A stretch of 64,000 nt of DNA, taken from the NCBI GenBank assembly GCA_938082375.1, contig CALKCJ010000020.1, positions 161,080 through 225,079 on the forward strand, given 5' to 3'. Shown piece after piece: positions 52,190 through 64,000 of this stretch (positions are counted from its first letter, which is position 1; each line of letters opens with the position of its first letter). This DNA is from an uncultured Thermomicrobiaceae bacterium. GTDB lineage: Bacteria; Chloroflexota; Chloroflexia; Thermomicrobiales; Thermomicrobiaceae. A program made the position numbers and the translations under genes. The notes beneath the pieces are model-generated. The model was not told the DNA's origin, did no database searches, and saw only the letters and a program-made list of their open reading frames with translations.

Positions 52190-53794
52190 CTACCTGGTCA
52201 GCAAAGTGGTATCGATCGGCGGGCGAGGGAGCCATCCCCTGCGCTGGAGCGCCTCACGGCCGAGCAACCCAAGCAGGACTCGGGACTGCTCGTCCTGGGC
52301 GTTGGGGTTGTACTCGAAGCGAGCGCGTTCGAAGTACTGCACCGTACGCCCGTTCTCGACAAACTCTTCGCTGATTGGATAGCCGAAGATCGCGACTCCG
52401 CCGTGGGTCTCCCAAAACTCCTTGAATCCGTACGCCAGCGAGTGGCCCGTCTCCGGGAAATACCGGCGTTCGCCTGAACTCTCGAACGGGGGTATGGGCT
52501 GGAACACGCGGTCACCGGTCAGCTCGACCCCGAGCCGGCCGAGCGTAATCCGCTGATCTTCAGGCGCGGAGGCACGGTACTCGAAGCGCGCGCGCTCGAA
52601 GTACTGGACAACCACCTGCTCCCCGGTGTCAGGATCAGTGATCGAGAACTCTTCGGTAAGCGGGTAACCGAAGATACGCTCGCCCCCATTCGCTTGCCAG
52701 AAGGCTTTGAACCCGGCGGAGATGAAATGCTGAGTTTCCGGGAAGTAGACGCGCTGGGCCGACGGTACCGCTGGGGGCTCCTGCGGATCGGTGGGAAGGC
52801 GCCCGACAATGGCCAAGGCTTGCACTCGTCCCTGGCCGGTCGACGTCTGGCTGATCCAGCCAATCAGCGCCTCGCTCACGCAGGGTGCCACAGCTTGTTG
52901 GGAGCGCGCGACAGCAAACTCCTGGTCATGCGCGATATCGTAGGCATAGATGTCAGGCAGGCCGCTTCGCCAATCTTCCCAAACGACCAGGTTCCCATGA
53001 AGAGCCGCGTTCGCAACCAGACGATCGTCGGTCAGGATACGCTCCTCTCCCGAAAGGCGGTGGCGCAGGACGAGCTTCGGTGGGCCGCCCCCTCTCAGGA
53101 ATCGTCGAAACACAATCCAGTCGCCAGAGATTACCGGATCGATCTCGTCGTCTGGGGTAATGGTTATGGGAGTGACCCGGCCCGTTCTGGCGTCCCAGGC
53201 AAAGATATCCCAGTTGTCCTCGTGGAAGCCCTGCCATACGACGATCTCGTTGCTGACCGAAGGGTGTGCTTGGTTCTCGGGGTCGTCCGTAATCTGGATG
53301 ACCTGCCCCGAGCCGAGGCGGCGTGCGAAGATATCCCATTGCCCGGTGCGGCGCTGGCGCCAGGCGACCAGATCGCCATCGATGGACGGCTCGCGCACTT
53401 CACCCGGCTGGTCGGTCACGACCAGCGGTGTGCCCTGGGCGAGGTCGATTCCGACGATCAGCCGCCTGGTCGGTTCGGTGCCGCTGACCCAGACGATGGT
53501 CGTCCCAGAAATTGCGGGCTCCTGGCGGGTACCGGGGCTCCGGTCAGGGCGAAACTCACGGCCGTCGTCGAGGTCGTAGGCATAGATATCCGGAGAGCCA
53601 CTGCGGAGATCCTCCCACACCGCGAGGGATCCGGAGCAGCGCAGCCCGCGCTGCTGGAAGCCGACTGAAGAGGTCATCGCCGGCTCGAGCCGGTACGGGA
53701 GTATCGTGGTGGTTGCGGAGGTGCTGCTGGTTGAAGGGGTAATCGCCAGGAAGGAGGTCAGGACGGCGATGCGAACCAAGAGACGCAGGCGCAC
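52190..53794 (-). CDS. Secreted beta-propeller (TolB/WD40-like) protein with two C-terminal YFPETGH repeats
   Basis: N-terminal hydrophobic signal; blade repeats DIYAYDLDDGREF, DIFARRLGSGQ, DIFAWDARTGRV, DIYAYDIAHDQEF; tandem YFPETxHxxxxGFKxFWxxxGGxxIFGYPxxEEF...VQYFERARFEY. Confidence 0.8.
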   Translation of the reverse strand: MRLRLLVRIAVLTSFLAITPSTSSTSATTTILPYRLEPAMTSSVGFQQRGLRCSGSLAVWEDLRSGSPDIYAYDLDDGREFRPDRSPGTRQEPAISGTTIVWVSGTEPTRRLIVGIDLAQGTPLVVTDQPGEVREPSIDGDLVAWRQRRTGQWDIFARRLGSGQVIQITDDPENQAHPSVSNEIVVWQGFHEDNWDIFAWDARTGRVTPITITPDDEIDPVISGDWIVFRRFLRGGGPPKLVLRHRLSGEERILTDDRLVANAALHGNLVVWEDWRSGLPDIYAYDIAHDQEFAVARSQQAVAPCVSEALIGWISQTSTGQGRVQALAIVGRLPTDPQEPPAVPSAQRVYFPETQHFISAGFKAFWQANGGERIFGYPLTEEFSITDPDTGEQVVVQYFERARFEYRASAPEDQRITLGRLGVELTGDRVFQPIPPFESSGERRYFPETGHSLAYGFKEFWETHGGVAIFGYPISEEFVENGRTVQYFERARFEYNPNAQDEQSRVLLGLLGREALQRRGWLPRPPIDTTLLTR

Positions 53795-54856: not shown

Positions 54857-54970
54857 CGGGGGTCGATGACTGCTGGCCCTACGGTCGTACATAATTCATT
54901 CACAGATGCTCGTGTAGACTACGGCGCCCGGCAGCCTATGCGCAGGACGAAGACGACGTGGAGGCGTGAC

Positions 54971-55561
54971 GTGACCCGTGAGCTCGAGATCCGCGAAGAA
55001 CCGTCACTGCAAGACATCGACTTGCTGGGGCGACTGACCCAGTACTTCGACTCGATTACCCAGCACCTCCGCGCAGGCCATGGGTGGTTCATCTTCAACG
55101 CGCGTGGGACGCGTGGGGCGAGGATCGGTGCCTTTATTTTGAGCCGGCTTGCCGAATACCAGCCGCTGATCACCTATTACTACATTCCGTGGCGTGACTT
55201 CGCCCTGAACGCCTACCTGGTCGAGGTCGAGCTGCAAGCGATGGCGGAGCGCGCGGCGCCGCTCCAGGGGCGAGTCAAGCGCGAATACGATATCGCGACA
55301 CGGATCTCACGCGACAGCATGGCCAGAATGGTCATTTCCGACCTTCTGATTGTTGCTGGAGTCGCACCACACCACCGGCACGAGCTGCAGTTTTTAGATC
55401 AGGCTGTGGAGCGGCGGTACACGCAGAAGCTGTCAACAATTCTGATCACGCCCGCGCAGCCGCATGAATTGGCGGCGCAGTTTGAGGAACTGGCACCGGG
55501 CGAAGGGGTATGGGAGCGCCTCTTCAGCCGGATGTACGAACGTAGTTTGATCGCGCTGTAG
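54971..55561 (+). CDS. Hypothetical protein; possible degenerate DnaC/IstB-like AAA+ domain
   Basis: GTG 54971 preceded by GTGGAGG; GWFIFNARGTRGARIGAFILSRLAE and DLLIVAGVAPHHRHELQFLDQAVERRYTQKLSTILITPAQPHELAAQF follow DnaC order without intact Walker residues. Confidence 0.6.
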   Translation: MTRELEIREEPSLQDIDLLGRLTQYFDSITQHLRAGHGWFIFNARGTRGARIGAFILSRLAEYQPLITYYYIPWRDFALNAYLVEVELQAMAERAAPLQGRVKREYDIATRISRDSMARMVISDLLIVAGVAPHHRHELQFLDQAVERRYTQKLSTILITPAQPHELAAQFEELAPGEGVWERLFSRMYERSLIAL

Positions 55562-63872: not shown

Positions 63873-64000
63873 TGATGGAGAGTTTGATCCTGGCTCAGGG
63901 ACAACGCTGGCGGCGTGCCTAATGCATGCAAGTCGGACGGGAGCCGCGCAAGCGGTCGACCGTGGCGGACGGGTGCGTAACACGTGGGGAACCTGCCCGC
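63873..64000 (+). rRNA. rrs: 16S ribosomal RNA, 5' end, truncated by window edge
   Basis: AGAGTTTGATCCTGGCTCAG...ACGCTGGCGGCGTGCCTAATGCATGCAAGTCG...GGCGGACGGGTGCGTAACACGTGGG. Confidence 0.97.

Follow-up and report, generated by a model that had tools for sequence, protein, structure and literature searches.

A very probable DnaC/DnaI-like pseudo-ATPase conserved across Thermomicrobia and in a few further Chloroflexota families

Introduction

Can a AAA+ protein of the DnaC/DnaI/IstB branch lose its ATP site and still be kept by selection, and what might such a protein then do? The question is raised by an open reading frame of an uncultured Thermomicrobiaceae bacterium that lies in a window of 64,000 nucleotides (the whole stretch of DNA analysed here) and encodes a product of 196 aa. 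An earlier note on this DNA had read the product, from a frame that looks intact, as a possible pseudo-ATPase, an AAA+ domain of the DnaC/IstB order with its Walker A and Walker B motifs lost. Clamp loaders and the ORC-related proteins of eukaryotes are known to include pseudo-ATPase subunits, and in the open-access literature we found no description of one belonging to the DnaC/DnaI/IstB branch. The lineage itself has been studied with respect to loaders: phage-derived dnaC/dnaI genes have been domesticated in Chloroflexi, according to the excerpted text of a work whose data set includes Thermomicrobium and Sphaerobacter (PMC5109545), and that excerpt makes no mention of a degenerate second dnaC/dnaI copy.

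Results

The coding sequence (54971..55561, forward strand) begins with GTG and ends with TAG, and a Shine-Dalgarno-like GGAGG (54960..54964, forward strand) stands 6 nt 5' of the start, a layout that recurs in the same-genus orthologs. The frame is also open from an ATG at 54866 to 54971, offering a longer alternative start; matches to the orthologs in related genomes start at 54971 or slightly past it, not at that ATG. Between 54866 and 54970 we observed a weak promoter-like match, with CATAAT ending at 54895, the only one that the promoter scan returned and near chance (shuffles give 0.5). Of 61 related genomes, 45 have a single ortholog each, and none of these orthologs carries an internal stop. 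Between the window gene and its same-genus orthologs dN/dS amounts to 0.035-0.051, and in the P-loop-equivalent segment it is at most 0.12. The frame at 54971-55561 is a real gene, and purifying selection acts on it. It is as intact as the earlier note had held it to be, and every peptide stretch quoted there is found exactly in the translation.

As for the fold, an AF2 model built on 26 family members (model 1; mean pLDDT 89.7, pTM 0.85) runs from a strand at residues 38-41 through a helix, a strand at 69-73, two helices, a strand at 125-129, a helix, a strand at 155-159 and further helices to a strand at 192-195; in this prediction the order of elements is that expected of an initiator-clade AAA+ core. 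Foldseek against the PDB placed IstB (2.4e-5), DnaI (1.1e-4) and DnaC (1.2e-4) on top, with DnaA next, and against a viral library it returned DnaC-like proteins at 1e-7. A second model (model 2; pLDDT 91.4), centred on a distant member that shares 39-63% identity with the sequences aligned to it, gave DnaI, IstB and DnaC as top matches. Hda is among the weaker structural matches of the two models, and the Sir3 AAA+ domain (3te6) is a weak match of model 2. By prediction, then, the fold is an AAA+ core and falls in the DnaC/IstB/DnaA clade.

Sequence profiles point to the same branch. The window protein alone matches the PHROG family phrog_50, "DnaC-like helicase loader", at 9.1e-6, as do 24 of 35 family members, and a profile of the 35 members finds E. 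coli DnaC as its sole significant match in the PDB (6.8e-4). With hhalign, the family aligns with the intact DnaI encoded by the same genomes at P = 1.2e-5 (local) and 6e-6 (global), and with their DnaA at P = 0.46. When the window organism's own genome was searched in six frames with the family profile, the second-best match was the intact DnaI (E = 0.0038). In the 26-member alignment, family and DnaI segments pair as GWFIFNARGTRGARI with GWLFLLGGYGCGKTHL, SDLLIVAGV with AGLLVLDDLG (the Walker B region) and YTQKLSTILITP with YNQRKPTIITSN; the global alignment further pairs ERLFSRMYER with ERIRSRLCDR. Pfam, IstB_IS21 included, gave no match to the window protein. One Pfam match among family members was judged to be chance, and weak NCBIfam and PDB matches (MyrA, NblS, YEATS4, MdcC) were set aside as isolated and at odds with the fold.

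Motifs were counted over 40 representatives below 90% identity. Only about 37 residues precede strand 1, so that the N-terminal helicase-binding domain is absent; the place of that domain and its linker in DnaC/DnaI is occupied by residues 14-22, QDIDLLGRL (55010..55036, forward strand), the start of a conserved helix in model 1 in which Q14, D15, D17, L18 and R21 are each at least 97% conserved across the family. At the Walker A position, residues 42-52, FNARGTRGARI (55094..55126, forward strand), the P-loop lysine (DnaC K112) is found in 0 of 40 representatives and GxxxxGK[ST] in none, conserved N43, R48 and R51 standing there instead; in the family/DnaI profile alignment R48-G49-A50 corresponds to the Gly-Lys-Thr triplet, in a loop that falls short of a P-loop by about one residue. 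A family hallmark, PWRDFALNAY (residues 73-82; 55187..55216, forward strand), follows strand 2 in the alignment. The Walker B strand, residues 124-138, DLLIVAGVAPHHRHE (55340..55384, forward strand), carries invariant P133 and E138 and lacks the acidic pair (DnaC D169/E170; 0 of 40, with single E and D seen in isolation only), its second position (130) being Gly in 37 of 40. In the sensor I strand, STILITP (residues 155-161; 55433..55453, forward strand), the sensor Asn (DnaC N203) is replaced by Pro161 in all 40.

What is kept lies at the C-terminus. The arginine finger and arginine coupler of DnaC are R220 and R216 (PMC8213410), and the box VII helix, residues 180-191, VWERLFSRMYER (55508..55543, forward strand), keeps at R183 and R187 the R-x-x-x-R spacing seen in DnaC (R216/R220) and DnaA (R281/R285; PMC8213410). 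The finger position, R187, is Arg in 36 of 40 representatives and lost in four; the coupler position, R183, is Arg in 32 and lost in eight. Conservation is higher still at N43, R48, W74, P133, E138, R149, P161, W181 and R51 (39 or 40 of 40). At the C-terminal edge of the strands 12/34 positions are nearly invariant (at least 97%), as against 17/150 elsewhere (Fisher p = 0.0014, a descriptive value, the edge set having been drawn from DSSP post hoc, after the alignment had been viewed). This edge, which in AAA+ proteins is the seat of ATP, is the best-protected surface here, above the finger.

Judged from the alignment, the loss of P-loop, Walker B and sensor I is fixed family-wide, which marks the protein as a putative conserved pseudo-ATPase rather than a pseudogene. 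Since fold, profile and motif evidence agree, its identity as a conserved pseudo-ATPase of the DnaC/DnaI branch is very probable. The proposals of the earlier note come out largely as made. The check it called for by structure prediction yields an AAA+ core of the P-loop-NTPase type in the DnaC/IstB/DnaA clade, the best sequence-profile matches are loaders of the DnaC type and not an unrelated family, and the ortholog alignment bears out a conserved inactive AAA+ protein, its degraded motifs being fixed. The suspected loss of the Walker B pair extends to 40/40 representatives, and the suspected finger helix keeps R187 in 36/40 and R183 in 32/40. On Walker A the note was right that the lysine is gone; its placing of the triplet at "R-I-G" (R51-I52-G53) gives way to R48-G49-A50.

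With regard to distribution, a scan of genome collections found 43 distinct loci, by title all Thermomicrobia/Chloroflexota except for three "Bacterium HR" bins, which cluster with the former by identity. In an even sample of the phylum the gene is present in 21 of 399 Chloroflexota genomes, from six families. The family is a previously unnamed, single-copy one of Thermomicrobia and a few other Chloroflexota families. Some relatives lack it, for example one 98% complete genome, which speaks for a replication factor that is not universal, if it is one at all. It is also absent in all four sampled members of genus g12 (G026, G034, G055, G056) and from the 96% complete genome G028, though a congener of the latter has it; these absences suggest lineage-specific loss. 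A viral or mobile origin was considered and rejected: no relatives were found in IMG/VR (pattern scan), phage records or plasmids.

On another contig (1-2088) of the same genome, intact dnaB, a DnaD-like gene with a DnaB_2 domain and the gene for DnaI are consecutive, DnaI having intact motifs (GGYGCGKTH, LLVLDDLGTE), and the pseudo-ATPase is therefore an additional paralog. The dnaB-dnaD-dnaI row amounts to a primosome set resembling that of Firmicutes, here in a member of Thermomicrobia. DnaA is present as well; a PF00308 search of this genome finds only DnaA and DnaI, hence no Hda-like protein, and has no match at the pseudo-ATPase locus. DciA gave no match in this genome, as expected where DnaI is present, and was dropped as a candidate in place of DnaI. 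DnaI occurs in 21/21 family-positive genomes against 242/399 Chloroflexota overall (phylum sample), and in 8/8 family-positive genomes tested outside the order; the excess is suggestive, covering only about six families and being confounded by descent.

Most Thermomicrobiales loci share one gene order: nucleoside hydrolase, pseudo-ATPase, polyprenyl synthetase (opposite strand), DUF4015, UbiA, Hsp20 and Lon. Outside Thermomicrobiales the neighbours differ, and a neighbourhood kept within the order and replaced elsewhere is uninformative on function. No replication gene was identified among the neighbours in any neighbourhood examined, nor was IS21, istA or another transposase among the annotated neighbours of the loci examined; the earlier remark that no IS element or dnaB is nearby holds for these neighbours, dnaB being on the other contig. 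The contig ends at window position 64000, about 8.4 kb 3' of the gene. In many draft genomes, too, the distance from the ortholog to a contig end is about 8 kb; two more contiguous relatives have an rRNA operon there (16S, two tRNAs, 23S, 5S, tRNA), which explains the recurrent assembly break. On the other side, 52190-53794 (reverse strand) encodes a protein of 534 aa whose repeats look like those of a beta-propeller and which has, at its C-terminus, a repeated motif of the type YFPETxH...FWxxxGGxxxFGYPxxEEF...YFERARFEY, for which Pfam gave nothing significant.

Discussion

What, then, might an ATPase-dead relative of DnaI do? The protein is most probably a chromosomally fixed AAA+ core of that branch, devoid of the helicase-binding domain, whose ATP site appears rebuilt with other conserved residues, and it would not itself load helicase. 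It may instead take an end position in which it docks on the ATP face of a relative that is still active, DnaI in the first place and DnaA in the second, through the kept box VII arginines R183 and R187. Once docked, it would stimulate or lock the ATP hydrolysis of its partner and so regulate helicase loading or initiation independently of ATP. There is precedent in Hda, an initiator-clade protein that acts on another, DnaA, via its arginine finger (PMC5295017). An end cap or activator for a neighbouring AAA+ subunit would require just such a finger, retained where the ATP site is gone. Fold, homology, motif loss, a finger kept in most members, selection and coexistence with DnaI, all computed, are consistent with such docking, as is the absence of a separate Hda-like protein from the PF00308 matches in this genome. 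Speaking against it, replication genes lie near the gene in none of the neighbourhoods examined, R187 and R183 are lost in 4/40 and 8/40 whereas the key residues of the old ATP edge stand at 39-40/40, the gene is missing from some relatives, and the coexistence with DnaI, phylogenetically confounded, spans only about six families. We hold the docking mechanism, in which partner, docking and effect are all conjectural, only tentatively, and much the same tentative standing goes to the whole, an ATPase-dead DnaC/DnaI paralog that docks on an active relative.

The pattern of box VII and the presence of DnaI in the same genomes put docking slightly ahead of a repurposed site, itself a possible if rather doubtful reading. 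Here the AAA+ fold would be kept while the former ATP edge became a new pocket with a role outside replication, perhaps lined by N43, R48, R51, W74-R75-D76, P133, E138 and P161 and perhaps binding a protein, a phosphorylated metabolite or the backbone of a nucleic acid. One precedent for a repurposed AAA+ protein is the Orc1 paralog Sir3, which serves in silencing in yeast and whose AAA+ domain (3te6) is a weak structural match here. The enrichment of near-invariant positions at the strand edge (12/34 vs 17/150, in a set chosen post hoc), the better conservation of edge residues than of the finger, which four representatives miss, and neighbours that are metabolic and quality-control genes rather than replication genes all fit this reading. 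However, no ligand or enzyme motif is recognisable, the conserved arginines could form a structural salt-bridge network, and the box VII R-x-x-x-R would need a separate explanation. That both ideas hold at once, in a Chloroflexota-specific initiation regulator which caps the loader or DnaA with its arginine finger and senses a ligand in the dead ATP site, we regard as unlikely.

Lower still stands an ATP-independent binder of ssDNA or RNA, acting singly or as a homo-oligomer, in which part of the DNA-binding surface of DnaC survives. H137 aligns with Tyr179 of the DnaC ssDNA-binding tetrad, and the position is H, Y or F in 39/40; yet in the alignments made no counterpart could be identified for the other half of the tetrad, Lys143/Phe146, and the assembly of initiator AAA+ proteins into oligomers on DNA usually depends on ATP, which leaves a nucleic-acid scaffold quite improbable. 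Just as hard to favour, and if anything harder, is an equivalent of Hda, tethered to the beta-clamp and docking on DnaA-ATP to trigger hydrolysis after initiation (RIDA-like): the box VII arginines are kept, PF00308 finds no separate Hda-like protein in the genome and Hda is among the weaker structural matches, but the profile resembles DnaI (P 1.2e-5) and not DnaA (P 0.46), and the N-terminal Q-D-x-D-L-L, lying in a predicted helix, misfits the clamp motif QL[SP]LPL (PMC5295017). A clamp-binding motif at Q14 was accordingly rejected, the N-terminus reading QD(I/V/R)DLL with invariant D17 where a hydrophobic residue is expected. An ordinary active ATPase with misread motifs, or a decaying pseudogene, has no finding in its favour and hardly deserves consideration, since GxxxxGK[ST] occurs in no representative and the acidic pair is missing at the Walker B position, while a dN/dS of 0.035-0.051 and intact frames in all members already refute decay.

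If a pseudo-ATPase of the DnaC/DnaI/IstB branch were confirmed, it would show how a domesticated phage-derived loader of Chloroflexi (domestication according to PMC5109545) came to yield, or to be joined by, a non-catalytic relative. Moreover, a small protein of a thermophile offers a direct test case for loader regulation.

How does the family compare with known systems? Yeast Sir3 and the clamp-loader delta subunit are pseudo-ATPases of the initiator and clamp-loader clades in which the AAA+ fold outlives the ATP site; unlike them, the present protein is bacterial, DnaC-like, without extra domains and of a different sub-clade. IstB, the helper ATPase of the IS21 transposase, is the top Foldseek match of model 1 (2.4e-5), but here no IS21 or istA stands beside any locus examined, the ATP motifs are missing and chromosomal synteny is conserved across the order. 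With Hda/HdaA it shares a stand-alone AAA+ core with a kept arginine finger and a possible in-trans role on a paralog; it departs from them in a profile that is not DnaA-like and in the missing clamp motif, and Hda acts in the ADP-bound state (PMC5295017) whereas this protein has no P-loop. From the DnaC/DnaI loaders it differs in lacking the Walker A Lys, the Walker B acidic pair, the sensor I Asn and the N-terminal helicase-binding domain, and in that a separate DnaI, itself intact, is encoded beside dnaB and the dnaD-like gene in the same genome. It is nevertheless with these loaders that it shares its AAA+ core topology, its best sequence-profile match, alignable Walker B and sensor I strands, the conserved Arg of the N-x-R-Y helix (R149) and the box VII R-x-x-x-R.
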